The notes beneath the pieces are model-generated. The model was given only the letters and a program-made list of their open reading frames with translations. It searched no databases and was not told where the DNA came from. This document shows, one piece after another, positions 1,575 through 31,409 of a DNA stretch of 31,409 bases. Source of the DNA: a virus. The number at the start of each line of letters is the position of its first letter. Position 1 is the first letter of the stretch. The position numbers and the translations under genes were made by a program. The DNA is taken from IMG/VR virus record IMGVR_UViG_3300008448_000390, positions 1-31,409 of that record; one strand, 5' to 3'.

Positions 1575-2897
1575 ATGAATAACACACCAACCGAAAAGAG
1601 CAAGCAAAAAAACGGAGAGTTTATACCAAACTTCACGCAGTACCCAAATGAGATCCTTGATGAGTGGATGCCCCACTTGTCAGGGAACCAGACCAAGATT
1701 ATGAATGTTTTTGTTCGTCAGATCTATGGCTACCACAAGGAATATGATAGAATCTCTATTAGACAGATCTCTCAGAAAACAGGAATATCTATTTCTAAAG
1801 TCTTTAAAGATGTTAAAAGTTTAATATCAATCGGATGTATTAAGATCCTAAAAAAGGGAGATAAGCACAATTCCCATCTTTACCAAATCTTAAATATTAC
1901 TGAAGAGTTACCCCAGAGGGAACACTCCAAAAGAAATAAGGGTGTTACCCCAGAGGGAACAGGGTGTTACCCTATAGGTAACTCAGGTGTTACCCCAGAG
2001 GTAACTGAAGAGTTACCCCAGAGGGAACAACAAAATAAAGAAATAAAAGAAATAAAATGTGAAATAAAGCAAACGATTCCAAATCACAGAGAACAGAGAA
2101 CAGATTTAGCCCACACATCCAAGATCGAGTCTTATTCAGTTGAGAAGCTACTAGAAAAATCCAATAACTTTCTGCAACAAGTCGGATTTGGATTTTCCAG
2201 AAATCCCAGATACATCCTAGATCAGATCTACAAGCTTCTCCCAGACGACTACCAAGTCAAAGAGGATGCCAAGGATACCGAGATCTTAAAACAAGCTATA
2301 GAACGCTTTGAGAGCGGTTCTGGAGCCGATAGGGACGCAATCTCCAAGAAACTCTTTCAGGGAGTCGAGGCAATGGCTAAACTCTATCTAATTAAAAAAT
2401 ACGGTGAGGAGTTTAGGGATGTTCTTTATCCTAAGATCTTAAACGATAACTTGATCCTTTATCTTAATTGCAATCCTACTCTCAAGTACTGTTTGCAGGG
2501 ATTTAGTAACGATATAGATGGGGTCTACTCAGAGATCAATCGAATTGTCAGAAAACGACAAGAACAAGAAGAACGGGACAGGATCAAAGAAGAACAAAGA
2601 TACCTTGAAAGGGAAAGGATCAAAGCCGAGGCACTCTCCAGACCACACTACTCGGATGAGGACATTCGTGCAATGGGATTGAGGACAGTTCCGGAACTTC
2701 TTCAGGCTATGCAGGACAAAGGGAGTAATATTGACGCACTCGATAAAAAATATCAAGCAGTTGACCAAACTATAACCGATAGAGAGAGGGAGAGGTTAGG
2801 AGAGTTACTGAGAATTAAAATTGCAAAAGGGAATTTGGATCTAAACGAAGAAAATGAGTATTTGGCATTAAATAGGAAAATAAAAGGGCATGATTGA
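1575..2897 (+). CDS. Replication initiator, lambda O-like (Phage_rep_O)
   Basis: A 440-residue protein. Residues about 14-110 have the Rep_O winged-helix pattern: F-T-Q-Y-P-N-E-I-L-D, then a L-S-x-N-Q-T-K-I-M-N-V-F-V-R-Q-I-Y-G-Y-H-K block, I-S-I-R-Q-I-S, T-G-I-S, and a final L-x-x-x-G-C-I-K-I. Residues 111-151 are encoded by five iterons, as in lambda O, where the origin lies inside the gene. The remainder is highly charged, with a predicted coiled-coil around 320-360 (R-Q-E-Q-E-E-R-D-R-I-K-E-E-Q), likely for helicase or loader contact. The start has AAGGAT. Its stop overlaps the next start. No helicase loader (P/DnaC) is certain in the window. Confidence 0.85.
   Translation: MNNTPTEKSKQKNGEFIPNFTQYPNEILDEWMPHLSGNQTKIMNVFVRQIYGYHKEYDRISIRQISQKTGISISKVFKDVKSLISIGCIKILKKGDKHNSHLYQILNITEELPQREHSKRNKGVTPEGTGCYPIGNSGVTPEVTEELPQREQQNKEIKEIKCEIKQTIPNHREQRTDLAHTSKIESYSVEKLLEKSNNFLQQVGFGFSRNPRYILDQIYKLLPDDYQVKEDAKDTEILKQAIERFESGSGADRDAISKKLFQGVEAMAKLYLIKKYGEEFRDVLYPKILNDNLILYLNCNPTLKYCLQGFSNDIDGVYSEINRIVRKRQEQEERDRIKEEQRYLERERIKAEALSRPHYSDEDIRAMGLRTVPELLQAMQDKGSNIDALDKKYQAVDQTITDRERERLGELLRIKIAKGNLDLNEENEYLALNRKIKGHD
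1907..2028. repeat. Five palindromic iterons, putative replication origin
   Basis: Five 17-bp copies of GTTACCCCAGAGGGAAC-like sequence lie at 1907-1923, 1944-1960, 1966-1982, 1989-2005 and 2012-2028. The last four are spaced 22-23 bp start to start, about two helical turns. Copies 3 and 4 have perfect GTTACC/GGTAAC arms. A purine- and A-rich, GC-poor stretch follows (2029-2072). Iterons with dyad symmetry inside an O-type gene next to an AT-rich tract is the layout of lambda ori. Confidence 0.8.
2029..2072. other. AT-rich purine tract beside iterons (candidate unwinding element)
   Basis: About 44 bases with very few C's or T-runs, consisting of repeated AAATAAA/GAAATAAA words, directly follow iteron 5. 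By analogy with lambda ori this is where the duplex would open. This rests on composition and position only. Confidence 0.55.
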
Positions 2898-5136: not shown

Positions 5137-5293
5137 TACAAAAACAAATTACAAGCTATTTCCAGAATTTCAGATGGCACTATTTGATTTCATGGGAACT
5201 ATCGGCAATGTATACGAAGAGACAGATTTGAAATTGTCAGACAGAGAAAAATTGAAAATAGCATTGATAAGAGAAAGAAATGCCAAGCAGTAA
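5129..5293 (+). CDS. Small hypothetical protein (TTG start)
   Basis: A 54-residue protein of unknown function. The TTG at 5129, with AAGGAAG nine bases upstream and an eight-base overlap of the previous stop, is a better start than the ATG at 5096, which would overlap the Cys-rich gene by 41 bases. The sequence has a hydrophobic middle (M-A-L-F-D-F-M-G) and a basic tail. Confidence 0.5.
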   Translation: MNNTKTNYKLFPEFQMALFDFMGTIGNVYEETDLKLSDREKLKIALIRERNAKQ

Positions 5294-5699
5294 TATTAGA
5301 AACAATATTGCTAAGATTAAAAGATCTCAGTATGTAAGCCAAAAGCAAAAATATGAAGAACCGTTTAAGAAGTTTTTAATATTCAATAACATAGATTTCA
5401 TCCAGGAATTTTGTCCTATACCTAACAGAAAGTTCAGAGCAGATTTCTTCCTTAAAAAATACAATACTCTTATAGAGATAGAAGGTGGGATTTGGAATCA
5501 AGGAAGACATACCAGAGGATTTGGTTATGCCAACGATGTTCGGAAATACAATGATTTTATTTTAGCAGGTTACAAGCTTATTCGTTTTACATCGGATGAC
5601 TTTATGGCTATTACAAAATATGAGTATTACATTAAAGATTATATCAAAACGACAATAGAGAAAATTACAGGAGATAAATATGCAGATAGGACATTATAA
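5280..5699 (+). CDS. PD-(D/E)XK endonuclease (Vsr/DUF559-like)
   Basis: A 139-residue protein with a restriction-endonuclease-like core: F-R-A-D-F-F-L with Asp55, then L-I-E-I-E-G-G with Glu66 and Glu68, a conserved G-R-H-T-R-x-x-G-Y-x-x-D-x-x-K-Y-N block, and the final G-Y-K-L-I-R-F-T strand. This is the arrangement of Vsr-type and DUF559-type nucleases found in many phages, which are thought to act on branched or mismatched DNA in recombination or packaging. The fold is clear; the substrate is not. ATG 5280 overlaps the previous gene and it overlaps the next by 20 bases. Confidence 0.8.
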   Translation: MPSSNIRNNIAKIKRSQYVSQKQKYEEPFKKFLIFNNIDFIQEFCPIPNRKFRADFFLKKYNTLIEIEGGIWNQGRHTRGFGYANDVRKYNDFILAGYKLIRFTSDDFMAITKYEYYIKDYIKTTIEKITGDKYADRTL

Positions 5700-27098: not shown

Positions 27099-27448
27099 TA
27101 TTATTAATCTTACTACTTGGATGTGCTACAGATAACCAGATCAATAAGCCAATAGATACCAAAGAAGCAATTAAAGACTTACAATCAATCGAAATTAATA
27201 CTATAAAGGATTCTGCTATCAGAGAGAGAGTGGTGAGAGTATTGCAGGATTGTGGAGAGTATGGAAAGGAAGCTTATAAGAGTGCTACTGCTTTACAAAG
27301 TCGAGTAGTCGAATTAGAAAAGCAATTAACAGAACTAGAAGAAGAAATAAAACCATATAGGTACTTTAAAAGATTCCTTTTAGTGTCTATAATTGCAGTT
27401 CTAATATTTTTTGGAATTAAATTTTATCTTAAACTAAAACCAATCTAA
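27086..27448 (+). CDS. Unimolecular spanin (u-spanin)
   Basis: A 120-residue protein with a lipoprotein signal (I-V-L-L-I-L-L-L-G-C, lipobox cysteine at residue 13), a periplasmic middle ending in a coiled coil (residues 65-90) and a C-terminal membrane helix (about 94-114, F-L-L-V-S-I-I-A-V-L-I-F-F). One protein anchored in both the outer membrane (lipid) and the inner membrane (helix) is the architecture of T1 gp11-type u-spanins, which fuse the two membranes in the last lysis step. It implies a two-membrane host. It overlaps the peptidase gene upstream and, tail to tail, the leftward HTH gene. Confidence 0.8.
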   Translation: MVRIVLLILLLGCATDNQINKPIDTKEAIKDLQSIEINTIKDSAIRERVVRVLQDCGEYGKEAYKSATALQSRVVELEKQLTELEEEIKPYRYFKRFLLVSIIAVLIFFGIKFYLKLKPI

Positions 27449-27639
27449 TAATTTTTTGCGTGCTTGATAAACTTAGCAGGTTGAACCTGTAGTCTATCTT
27501 GCCATTCCAATCTAATCAATTCCAGATCCTCAGAATTGACAGAACCATCTGCCAAGATTCTAAGTTTTCTTTCTTTGATTAATCGTCTAATTGTAGTTTG
27601 GTGAACTTTCAAATATCGTGATGCATCCTTAATTTTCAT
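27445..27639 (-). CDS. Small HTH regulator (excisionase/MerR type)
   Basis: A 64-residue protein. I-K-D-A-S-R-Y-L-K-V-H-Q-T-T-I-R-R-L-I-K-E-R-K-L (residues 3-26) is a helix-turn-helix of the HTH_17 type, followed by an acidic helix and a basic tail. ATG at 27639 is chosen over 27699 because TAGGAGAGAA precedes it directly, and the longer form would cover the hairpin at 27661-27689. It is leftward in an otherwise rightward genome, a likely repressor or regulator of early genes. The 3' end overlaps the u-spanin gene by four bases. Confidence 0.75.
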   Translation of the reverse strand: MKIKDASRYLKVHQTTIRRLIKERKLRILADGSVNSEDLELIRLEWQDRLQVQPAKFIKHAKNY

Positions 27640-27660
27640 ATTCTCTCCTATAAAATAAAA

Positions 27661-27689
27661 TGAACCGTTCGGAAATACCGAACAGTTCA
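27661..27689 (-). terminator. Leftward terminator / attenuator hairpin
   Basis: Arms of 12 bases (27661-27672 with 27678-27689, one mismatch) flank a five-base loop. Read leftward, the GC-rich hairpin is followed by TTTTATTTTA and then the ribosome site of the HTH gene. It would terminate the membrane-protein transcript and let the HTH gene be made only by readthrough. It could also be a DNA operator. Confidence 0.7.
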
Positions 27690-27701
27690 GATCTATCAAT
27701 C

Positions 27702-28202
27702 TTAATCTAACTTTATATCATGCCAACTATTTTTGTATGTCTCGTTTATATTTTTAATCTCCCTATCATATTGCTGAACAGCTAACTCAGTTAGGTATAC
27801 TATGATTGCAATTGGTAACACGCTCATAATCAATGCTTGGCTAAATGCGAGCAATGTTCCAGGGTCGTCAATCGGTTGTTTACATGCTCCTGCACAAACC
27901 AGAAATGAATTAGTATTAGCAGTGGTAGATATTAGAAAAGCAAGTATCACAGAACCCCACATAAGAGCATAAGTTCTCATTAAGTGAAATACGATAATGG
28001 CTATGTCCAGTGCAAGGGATATTCCCAGAGCATAGATTGTCAGAGTAGTTTCCGATTGGATAAGATCCATTCTAGTTTGCAATAGATAGTACTTAATAGC
28101 TGAATAGTTAGAAATTATCCCTACAGTTCCAAAGAAGATTGCAATGGAAAGTTTAAGTCTTTTGGTCTCGAAGAATTGAAAGAATTTTGATTGATTTTTC
28201 AT
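27702..28202 (-). CDS. Four-helix membrane protein, superinfection exclusion candidate
   Basis: A 166-residue protein with four predicted membrane helices (about residues 17-40, 53-75, 78-97 and 117-139), two cysteines (103, 107) in a short loop, and charged ends. Good GGAG site. No family recognised. A leftward, separately controlled membrane protein beside a small HTH regulator is the typical setting of a host-modifying or superinfection-exclusion gene, but this is inference from position. Confidence 0.7.
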   Translation of the reverse strand: MKNQSKFFQFFETKRLKLSIAIFFGTVGIISNYSAIKYYLLQTRMDLIQSETTLTIYALGISLALDIAIIVFHLMRTYALMWGSVILAFLISTTANTNSFLVCAGACKQPIDDPGTLLAFSQALIMSVLPIAIIVYLTELAVQQYDREIKNINETYKNSWHDIKLD

Positions 28203-28771: not shown

Positions 28772-29092
28772 ATGCTAGATAAAGATTGTATTTTAATAAA
28801 AAATTATATATCAAACCCAAAAACTTATGATGACTTTTGGGAAAACGCAAAAACACTTTCGTATCAATATTCATCCAGATCAAAATTAGATTTTTTTTCT
28901 TGGAGAGATGCATATGGTATTCCGTATGCAATACACTTTGATAAGACTGGAATTAAAACAGCCCAACAAATAGAAGAGTTTATGACAGAGGACGATACCG
29001 AAAAGAAATACGTGAGAGCAAATAAATTAGTCGTTCCAAGGATTAATTTATCGGAGTATTTGAATCAAAAAAAACAGGAGATAACAGCATGA
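28772..29092 (+). CDS. Hypothetical early protein
   Basis: A 106-residue protein of unknown function with a mixed aromatic N-terminal half (Y-D-D-F-W-E-N-A-K, S-W-R-D-A-Y-G-I-P-Y) and an acidic C-terminal part. GGAG site. The stop overlaps the next ATG by four bases. Confidence 0.65.
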   Translation: MLDKDCILIKNYISNPKTYDDFWENAKTLSYQYSSRSKLDFFSWRDAYGIPYAIHFDKTGIKTAQQIEEFMTEDDTEKKYVRANKLVVPRINLSEYLNQKKQEITA

Positions 29093-30003
29093 ATGAGATT
29101 ATAATCCAAAATAACAACCCACTCGAAAACATTCGCCAGTCAACAGACGTGGCAGGAGCATGTAAAGAGATAGTCACTAAGACAGCAATAAGCATCCAAG
29201 GAAAAAAATATGTCCCTGTAGAGGGATGGATGAGCATTGCAACGGCTCATGGGTGTGTAGCTAGTATATCAAAAGTTGAATCAGTAGAAGGAAATATTAA
29301 TTTTGTAAGAGGCTATAAAGCAACTGCAGAAATTAGACGCATGACAGATAACATGCTAATTTCTACAGCCGAGGGTTTTGTAGGTGAAGATGAACCTGTT
29401 TGGTTTGGAGGAGAGTCTGAAGTATACGACAAGCAGACCAAAAGAAAGGTAAAAAAAATCTTACCAAAACGACCAGATTTTGCAATTCGTGCAATGGCTC
29501 AAACAAGAGCTTTGTCGAGAGTATGTAGGTCTGCTTTTGCTCACATAGTAGTACTTATGGATGCAGGTCTTAGCACTACGCCTGCAGAAGAAATGTCTTA
29601 TGACATTGAAGTTAAAGCAACAGAAAGTAGAGAAGAGATAGTTAAACCAGAAACCAAGCCTGAACAAAAACAGCCAATAAAATCAAGCATAGAAGAAACA
29701 TTCTCTAAGTTCAAAACTGCCATTAGTGAGTGTCTTCTCACTCTCAATCTGGATAGATTTATAAAGGCAAGTCAGACTTTTGATAAATACGTCGAAACTC
29801 TTCCAGAAGAGATTTACGAAGAATATAGCCATTACATGACTAAAACTCTAACTCAGATTACAGAACAAATAGAGTCAGGAGATTTTGCAACTAGCGAAGT
29901 ACAGAGAGATCAATTGATTAAACTTTTTCCAGTCTGGAAAAACGAAATTACACGAGTCTATAACAACCAACCAAAAAAAGACCAAGAGGAGAGAATATTT
30001 TGA
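29089..30003 (+). CDS. Conserved phage protein, putative single-strand annealing / recombination
   Basis: A 304-residue protein. The N-terminal 175 residues form a conserved phage domain: I-S-I-Q-G-K-K-Y-V-P-V-E-G-W, T-A-E-G-F-V-G-E-D-E-P-V-W, R-A-M-A-Q-T-R-A-L-S-R-V-C-R-S-A-F-A-H-I-V-V-L and T-P-A-E-E-M. The Q-T-R-A-x-S-x-x-x-R block with a downstream T-P-A-E-E-M is shared with phage recombination proteins of the annealing type, but I am not certain of the family. The C-terminal part is charged and helical. Early position and the nearby nuclease suit DNA recombination. Good AGGAG site. Confidence 0.6.
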   Translation: MNEIIIQNNNPLENIRQSTDVAGACKEIVTKTAISIQGKKYVPVEGWMSIATAHGCVASISKVESVEGNINFVRGYKATAEIRRMTDNMLISTAEGFVGEDEPVWFGGESEVYDKQTKRKVKKILPKRPDFAIRAMAQTRALSRVCRSAFAHIVVLMDAGLSTTPAEEMSYDIEVKATESREEIVKPETKPEQKQPIKSSIEETFSKFKTAISECLLTLNLDRFIKASQTFDKYVETLPEEIYEEYSHYMTKTLTQITEQIESGDFATSEVQRDQLIKLFPVWKNEITRVYNNQPKKDQEERIF

Positions 30004-30365
30004 ACACCGAAATAAAAACAAATACAAATCGTTACTGGAGTATTAACGAGGATAAATATGTGTTTGGCAATAATATGTATGGCAATCATAATTTTATACA
30101 TTCAGAATGGACTGGGCTTGTCGATGAAGATCTAAATCCTATCTATGAAGATGACATTATTTTTGTGACTGAAACAGACAGAGAAGCTTATTATGTTGTA
30201 GTTAGGCACGACTATCAAAACTATAATGTATTCGATACATACCCAATAAGACAACCGTATTCTTCTTTGGGTCTTGGATGGATCACGGCAAGTTTTATAA
30301 AGGGAGTTAAAATTGTCGGAAACATCCGAGAAGAAAAGTACAGAAAGTACAGGGAAATGATATGA
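30000..30365 (+). CDS. YopX-family protein (TTG start)
   Basis: A 121-residue protein with the YopX-type pattern W-T-G-L-V-D-E-D-L-N-P-I-Y-E-D-D-I-I-F-V, a middle beta region, and the closing I-V-G-N-I-R-E-E motif. YopX proteins are common phage and prophage proteins of unknown function forming small beta-barrels. Start is TTG 30000 with GAGGAG upstream, overlapping the previous stop as TTGA. Confidence 0.75.
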   Translation: MNTEIKTNTNRYWSINEDKYVFGNNMYGNHNFIHSEWTGLVDEDLNPIYEDDIIFVTETDREAYYVVVRHDYQNYNVFDTYPIRQPYSSLGLGWITASFIKGVKIVGNIREEKYRKYREMI

Positions 30366-30550
30366 AAAAATTCTATGGCTATGCACAAGCAGGAATAAAT
30401 AAGATAGGAGGTGTATCATCTTGCGAGGTGATACACATTGAACTCTCGGAGGAAGATGCAAAGAATAGAGCGATCAGACAAAAAAGTCTGATTGCTACTA
30501 TCGACCAACTATGGAACAAGGAAGGATTGAATGGAAGAAATAGTAAGTAA
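30362..30550 (+). CDS. Small hypothetical protein
   Basis: A 62-residue protein of unknown function; the first part is beta-like (Y-G-Y-A-Q-A-G-I-N-K-I-G-G) and the rest helical. It contains a perfect 8-bp inverted repeat (30411-30418 with 30429-30436). ATG overlaps the YopX stop. Confidence 0.6.
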   Translation: MKKFYGYAQAGINKIGGVSSCEVIHIELSEEDAKNRAIRQKSLIATIDQLWNKEGLNGRNSK

Positions 30551-30896
30551 ATTTGCGGATCTAAAACCTACTCACAGATACTATTGTGATTCTTGTCAGG
30601 ACACAGGTAAGATTGAAACATTAGTTTACACAGGAAAAAATATAGGCTATCTTGCACACGGTCAAGTCATTGTATCCTATGATAGATTTGCAAGGATTTG
30701 TTGGAACTACCACAAGGGATTACATCCAAGTTTGCCAGAATACAATAAGTTTTTAATGAGCAATCGAGAAGCAATAGAAACTTATTGTAAAAGTGCGGAG
30801 AAATACAATCCATCTGCATACTATGACGTTAAAAGTACAGATCCTTGCACATGCAGAAGAGGTAACTGGACAAAGGAGAAGAAACAATATGATTGA
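30531..30896 (+). CDS. Zinc-finger-like early protein
   Basis: A 121-residue protein. C-D-S-C-Q-D-T-G-K-I at residues 19-28 resembles the C-x-x-C-x-D-T-G zinc knuckle found near the start of helicase-loader and related phage proteins. Further cysteines (C-W-N, C-K, C-T-C-R) follow. The length is short for a loader and no ATPase motif is present, so only metal binding is suggested. ATG overlaps the previous gene by 20 bases; site GGAAGG. Confidence 0.55.
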   Translation: MEEIVSKFADLKPTHRYYCDSCQDTGKIETLVYTGKNIGYLAHGQVIVSYDRFARICWNYHKGLHPSLPEYNKFLMSNREAIETYCKSAEKYNPSAYYDVKSTDPCTCRRGNWTKEKKQYD

Positions 30897-31035
30897 TTTA
30901 AGGTTCAAACTATTCGATTGGATCATCTGGATCAAGCCAGTTGACTATCTTTTGTTCAGCGAACGGCATAGGATCTCTTGTAAGGTATATGTTATATGGT
31001 ATGTGGCTATTGTGATAAGGAGAGTTATAAGATGA
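30889..31035 (+). CDS. Small basic hydrophobic protein
   Basis: A 48-residue ORF starting at ATG 30889 with AAGGAGAAG upstream. Hydrophobic and aromatic, with two short candidate membrane segments (L-F-D-W-I-I-W-I and V-Y-V-I-W-Y-V-A-I-V-I) and a basic tail (R-R-V-I-R). An upstream in-frame start at 30793 would cross the preceding gene and is rejected. Function unknown. Confidence 0.55.
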   Translation: MIDLRFKLFDWIIWIKPVDYLLFSERHRISCKVYVIWYVAIVIRRVIR

Positions 31036-31193
31036 GCATATCACAGATAGAAAGTGCATTGGTAACCTTGATTACAGTAGAGGCATATTTAGAAAGATCC
31101 TTGAAAAGTATTCTAAGTAAAAAAGAAAAAAATCAGTTAAAACAGACTCGTATGGGAATTGAATTAAAATCTAAAAGGAATGAAAATGAATAA
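31032..31193 (+). CDS. Small helical protein
   Basis: A 53-residue ORF starting at ATG 31032, overlapping the previous TGA (ATGA). Helical and Lys-rich (Y-L-E-R-S-L-K-S-I-L-S-K-K-E-K). Unknown function. Overlaps the junction gene by eight bases. Confidence 0.55.
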   Translation: MSISQIESALVTLITVEAYLERSLKSILSKKEKNQLKQTRMGIELKSKRNENE

Positions 31194-31409
31194 TATTAAT
31201 TGGAAAATAGGAGATAAATGTTTCTTTATCACAAGAAATGAACCATATTTAGGAATAATTAAAGATATAAAATTTTACGGAGAATATGACGAATATTTAC
31301 AAAAATATATTTGTAAAAGTTATAAAGCAAAAATAGAATATTTATATAAAGATAATAATTATGAAGCGTATGATTATGAAGAAAATATTACTGAAATGTT
31401 TAGATCTAA
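31186..31409 (+). CDS. 5' part of junction-spanning SH3-like protein
   Basis: Starts at ATG 31186 (AAAGGAATGA upstream), runs off the window end and continues at base 2 to 205, giving 104 residues. N-W-K-I-G-D-K-C-F-F, G-I-I-K-D-I-K-F-Y-G-E and a C-terminal helix match the 6656 product; the 545 product is a more distant relative. Unknown function. Confidence 0.75.
   Translation, partial: MNNINWKIGDKCFFITRNEPYLGIIKDIKFYGEYDEYLQKYICKSYKAKIEYLYKDNNYEAYDYEENITEMFRS
31296..31409. repeat. Terminal direct repeat, right copy (114 bp)
   Basis: Exact copy of bases 1-114. Joining the copies gives a unique length of 31,295 bp and restores a 104-codon gene. Confidence 0.95.

Follow-up and report, generated by a model that had tools for sequence, protein, structure and literature searches.

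A probable lambda-style replication origin within the O-like initiator gene of an uncultured phage, apparently exchanged together with its DNA-binding domain

Lambdoid phages carry their replication origin in the middle of the O gene as a set of iterons and an AT-rich region; one account counts four iterons for lambda and six for Stx phages (PMC7466680). The lambda O protein is described as binding DNA through its N-terminus and the P protein through its C-terminus, with a flexible linker between the two and a dimer seated on each iteron (PMC6022878). In PLE satellites, the binding domain of the initiator reportedly co-varies with the origin under a conserved C-terminus, and an origin-directed nuclease is the driver proposed there (PMC8263062). 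Here we describe a 31,409-bp virus record from IMG/VR, analysed at full length and referred to as the window, in which an O-like initiator gene very probably carries the phage's own replication origin in the manner of lambda ori and O. We include in this reading both the mechanism and the cassette exchange set out below.

The initiator is a 440-residue protein that matches Pfam Phage_rep_O over residues 20-93 (5.6e-12; 46.5 bits against a cut-off of 28.7) and the PHROGs annotation 'replication initiation O-like' (2.4e-21). A preliminary description of this DNA had placed five 17-bp palindromic iterons here, four at a two-turn spacing and the first offset by 37 bp. All five were located, with start-to-start steps of 37, 22, 23 and 23 bp, and they are palindromes, though imperfect ones: iterons 1 to 5 match their own reverse complements at 12, 12, 12, 14 and 12 of 17 positions. 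They had also been assigned to the coding middle of the Rep_O protein; they do lie within the gene, at codons 111-152 of 440 (gene coordinates 333-454), but behind the Rep_O domain rather than in the midst of it.

This layout closely resembles that of phage lambda O (NC_001416), where four iterons start at codon 117 with steps of 20, 24 and 23 bp, compared with five from codon 111 in the window. In both genes the iterons stand directly behind the DNA-binding domain, about two helical turns apart, use all three codon frames (0, 2, 2, 1 in lambda; 2, 0, 1, 0, 2 in the window) and are followed on the same strand by an A-rich tract. The AT-rich purine tract previously noted after the iterons is indeed present: at 71% A, 84% A+T and 82% purine, it ranks first in A content among the 1,279 45-bp windows of the gene. 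The least stable 50 bp of lambda O likewise come right after its iterons. Both this likeness and the comparison of relatives support the earlier suggestion of a lambda-style origin in an O-like gene.

The repetition of the array is far from what codon choice alone would give. In 5,000 synonymous-codon reshuffles that kept the protein, the iterons had a mean pairwise identity of 0.594, with a maximum of 0.782, and no reshuffle reached the observed 0.918; the observed palindromy was reached in one of the 5,000. Seven other genes of the window, taken as controls for a repeat score, did not exceed their own reshuffles. One might still suppose that the repetition arises at the protein level and that the DNA of a flexible linker repeats itself only because the peptide does. 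The words GVTPE and EELPQRE do occur twice each, and the iteron and tract DNA codes for part of residues 107-190, which AlphaFold predicts to be disordered. A single DNA word, however, is read in three codon frames to give EELPQRE, GVTPE and GCYPIGNS, which makes the peptide words secondary to the DNA, and the spacings are not multiples of three. Silent sites within the iterons are also frozen. Across the window, L006, L007 and L025 (L numbers designate related or matching stretches from viral contigs), none of the 28 degenerate third positions of the iterons is variable; 3 of 17 vary in the spacers and 60 of 106 in the binding domain (Fisher test, domain against iterons, p 7e-9). The invariance of the iteron third positions in these four genes means that the DNA itself is under constraint. 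With both the frame test and the silent-site test against it, and with codon reshuffling restoring the identity not once, the peptide-repeat explanation was rejected, and we consider it extremely unlikely. The earlier statement that the iteron DNA forces peptide words thus stands, corrected to three frames. Such constraint may be tolerable at this point because the encoded linker is predicted to be disordered, and the three-frame array shows cleanly how a function of the DNA can take precedence over codon choice.

Scans of viral contigs turned up the C-terminal domain of this initiator in 10 contigs, of which one, L039, lacks the N-terminus, leaving nine relatives and, with the window, 10 genes for comparison. 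Omitted from that comparison were L039/L056, a single contig with the C-terminal part alone; L041, whose 40 codons lie at the end of a contig; and L042, L043 and L044, 38-40% identical and in the binding domain only. Searching viral contigs with a binding-domain profile brought up no further full gene. The N-termini fall into four types: A (window, L006, L007, L025, L036), B (L008), C (L040, L052) and D (L053, L057). The five-site array, with identical spacing and positions, is present in all five type-A genes and in none of the five genes of other types.

L025 keeps the domain and iterons with a diverged C-terminus, and L008 keeps the C-terminus under a different Rep_O domain without such iterons. 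By blastn, the window aligns with L025 over gene positions -22 to 496 and with L008 from position 467 onward; L025 aligns with L040 from -69 to 38 and again from 507 onward, and L036 with L053 from -78 to 40 and again from 615 onward. Relatedness switches just behind the array and, in the latter two pairs, near codon 13 as well; the moving unit would thus be domain, array and tract, reaching from roughly codon 13 to roughly codon 168. It appears from these alignments that the three form a single heritable cassette of ~470 bp, which related phages trade among themselves while keeping the C-terminal part. Switch points directly after the array could also be read as the mark of a recombination hot spot, with module exchange reflecting that activity and not an origin. 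We find this very improbable, since exchanges between types occur without shared sites, so the array cannot serve as homology for them, and since the second switch point, near codon 13, is distant from the array. A hot spot would also leave unexplained the concerted change of helix and sites in L036.

The domain of L036 is 78% identical to that of the window, and its five sites are retained at 37/22/23/23. The sites themselves have changed together: in the window all 10 half-sites have C at position 5, as against 1 of 10 in L036, and G at position 7 is absent from the window's 10 half-sites and present in 7 of 10 in L036. Protein changes are concentrated from residue 57 on, with S72P, K75G, K78R, V80L and S82I in or beside the predicted recognition helix, to which we assign a recognition role by analogy with winged-helix proteins. 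Nucleotide divergence between L036 and the window climbs at about codon 57-60, and L036 may therefore be a recombinant within the domain rather than the product of stepwise change. Under either origin of the change, helix and sites go together. The natural swaps (domain and iterons retained beside a new C-terminus; the C-terminus retained beside a new domain and other repeats; helix and five sites changed in concert) bear on which domain reads the iterons, and the comparison supports a tie between the iterons and the DNA-binding domain of their own protein.

The gene upstream is independent of iteron type: L025 (A) and L008 (B) share it at 75%, and L040 (C) and L053 (D) at 72%. That this antirepressor-like gene does not track the iterons argues against the array being mainly a regulatory or incompatibility site, through which the initiator or another phage protein would control expression or copy number while replication starts elsewhere. 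Iterons can be inhibitory competitors, as plasmid-borne lambda iterons are reported to block initiation of phage replication (PMC3349717), and the isolation of iteron 1 at 3.5 turns would suit such a role. Yet the array lies more than 330 bp inside the coding sequence, no further copy (up to two mismatches) was found near a promoter or anywhere else in the 31,409-bp record, the A-rich tract adjoins the array as it does in lambda, and the gene is free of DnaA-box-like sites. We therefore regard a mainly regulatory site as unlikely and favour an origin. A DnaA-box origin was rejected as a candidate in its own right, there being 29 matches (up to one mismatch) in the window against 45 expected and none at 1575-2897. 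The upstream gene (814-1518, Bro-N/antirepressor-like) is itself mosaic, with the window, L006, L007 and L036 sharing its C-terminal part and differing N-terminally.

We propose a mechanism for this origin in which a dimer on each site, stacking at two turns and opening of the A-rich tract are borrowed from lambda. The N-terminal winged helix, probably dimeric, would bind each 17-bp palindrome, and the four sites at two-turn spacing would stack the protein along a single side of the double helix. Iteron 1, 3.5 turns upstream, would face the opposite side and probably assists or regulates. The complex would strain the adjoining tract, which would then open, and the C-terminal domain, held on a floppy linker encoded by the iteron DNA, would recruit the host helicase or its loader. 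For this last step we have no precedent at hand.

Table 1. Features of the initiator gene and its putative origin in the window (domain limits from a full-length AlphaFold model used for that purpose only; mean predicted local distance difference test score, pLDDT, 62)
Feature	Coordinates	Strand	Basis or remark
O-like replication initiator gene, 440 residues	1575-2897	+	Pfam Phage_rep_O; PHROGs 'replication initiation O-like'
Exchangeable cassette (binding domain, iterons and tract), approximate limits	1613-2081	+	blastn switch points at gene positions 38-40 and about 467-512; junction views
N-terminal winged-helix DNA-binding domain, residues 37-105	1683-1889	+	AlphaFold secondary structure; Rep_O match at residues 20-93
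Predicted recognition helix, residues 73-86	1791-1832	+	AlphaFold; altered in L036 along with the iterons
Predicted disordered linker, residues 107-190, overlapping iterons and tract	1893-2144	+	AlphaFold pLDDT <50
Iteron 1	1907-1923	+	Codon frame 2; 37 bp (3.5 turns) from iteron 2
Iteron 2	1944-1960	+	Codon frame 0
Iteron 3	1966-1982	+	Codon frame 1
Iteron 4	1989-2005	+	Codon frame 0
Iteron 5	2012-2028	+	Codon frame 2
A-rich purine tract, candidate unwinding element	2029-2073	+	Directly 3' of iteron 5; top A content; stability rank 2
Conserved helical C-terminal domain, common to the four N-terminal types; candidate helicase-recruiting part	2130-2558	+	Function inferred

The C-terminal domain, modelled alone, reaches a pLDDT of 84. 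It has no family match in Pfam or PHROGs and no meaningful match among PDB sequences (best E 0.26), and fold searches with it were weak (Foldseek best E 3.0; VIA-align best Z 4.8, to a designed protein). It may represent a new way of capturing the host helicase.

Several observations weigh against an origin at this place, or against parts of the model. Close linkage by itself could account for part of the co-inheritance of domain and iterons. The repeats of the other types have suggestive steps (roughly two-turn in B, at 34/24/23, and in C, at about 21/24/22; 15 bp in D) and are poorly separated from a synonymous-codon control, their score being reached in 4 of 40 reshuffles for L008, 5 of 40 for L040, 5 of 40 for L053 and 40 of 40 for L057; in L052 the top-scoring repeat falls in the A-rich stretch. 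We count this control as strict because reshuffles reached the score even for lambda O (1 of 40) and for Escherichia phage mEpX1 (2 of 40). By nearest-neighbour stability, 2025-2074 comes second, not first, among the gene's least stable 50-bp stretches, and in the record as a whole 537 of 31,360 windows equal or exceed the instability of the gene's weakest one. By the same measure the tract ranks first in L036, L008, L040 and L052, third in L006 and L007, and outside the top three in L025, L053 and L057. GC skew, put forward as a check, gave no usable origin signal. Finally, unlike in lambda and mEpX1, no P or DnaC gene was detected. None directly follows O, where the next two open reading frames (ORFs) have no PHROGs match and are followed by ThyX (a divergent loader could escape detection), and the window ORFs that were scanned included none recognisable as P, DnaC, helicase, primase or polymerase, about ten ORFs, mostly of the late region, lying outside the PHROGs scan.

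An exact-iteron scan of viral contigs gave 25 stretches, three belonging to the family (L009, L019, L025) and 22 with a single exact match, mostly in unrelated genes; an iteron-pair scan gave 12, four of the family and eight others. Of these eight, L061, L062 and L064 have palindromic repeats within coding sequence. Another of the eight, from a different phage contig, is a small DNA-binding-protein-like gene, L067:8596-9171 (-); it contains five GTTATC-N5-GATAAC-type palindromes at 22/23/24/24 with a half-site resembling that of L036, and is apparently an independent example of an origin within an initiator. L042 and L043 each have three exact repeats at 24-bp spacing; in L042 (4337-4411), a distant Rep_O relative, they are 27 bp long and lie in a single frame, compared with the three-frame array of the window.

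No host or prophage relatives were found with binding-domain and C-terminal profiles in 84,980 bacterial and archaeal species genomes. In L008, homologues of the window's right-end genes lie directly upstream of the antirepressor and O genes. Taking 28772-31409 and 1-1575 together, the record is therefore probably a nearly complete, circularly permuted genome cut in its early region. A small nuclease-like protein encoded at 5280-5699 (PHROGs HNH endonuclease, 1.5e-6, and unknown families) is kept downstream of O in L008. At 27445-28202 (-), two adjacent leftward ORFs among rightward genes encode a small HTH_17/excisionase-like protein and a 166-residue protein without a clear family.

The design of an origin within its initiator is long known from lambda. 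What we add is a new, distant case in which the natural swaps are unusually clean and the C-terminal domain is unassigned. It would extend the design to a group of uncultured phages far removed from the named ones searched; we found no description of this group in the open-licence literature. A broader picture is possible, if doubtful, in which the phages of this group, of ~30-32 kb, use a plug-in origin cassette. At least four DNA-binding domains, accompanied in each case by an iteron type and tract of their own, would be swapped in and out between two shared parts, a short 5' stretch of ~13 codons and a hitherto undescribed C-terminal domain able to recruit the host helicase in the absence of P or DnaC. 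Turnover would be driven by origin-directed interference from decoy iterons, origin-cutting nucleases or competing phages, as has been proposed for the PLE satellites.

Compared with lambda, the window has one site 3.5 turns off, a different site sequence, an apparently unrelated C-terminal part and no detected P gene. The best named relative of its binding domain is the O protein of mEpX1 (JQ182727), 42% identical over residues 20-89, whose gene likewise contains four internal iterons, at 20/24/24, and then an A-rich, least stable stretch. The mEpX1 sites have another sequence, a DnaC-like gene directly follows O, and there is no similarity past the binding domain. The Stx phages P27 and 933W share with the window an O gene holding more than four iterons and an AT-rich region; as described, theirs are six iterons of the lambda sequence type, accompanied by lambdoid O and P genes (PMC7466680). 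The swapping seen here is most reminiscent of RepA and ori in the PLE satellites, for which repeated exchange has been inferred and cognate pairing shown experimentally (PMC8263062). According to the same report, the PLE origin lies in a separate intergenic region and the initiator domain is RepA_N, not Rep_O. In the window the putative origin lies in the gene, beside the binding domain, so that one exchange would move both.
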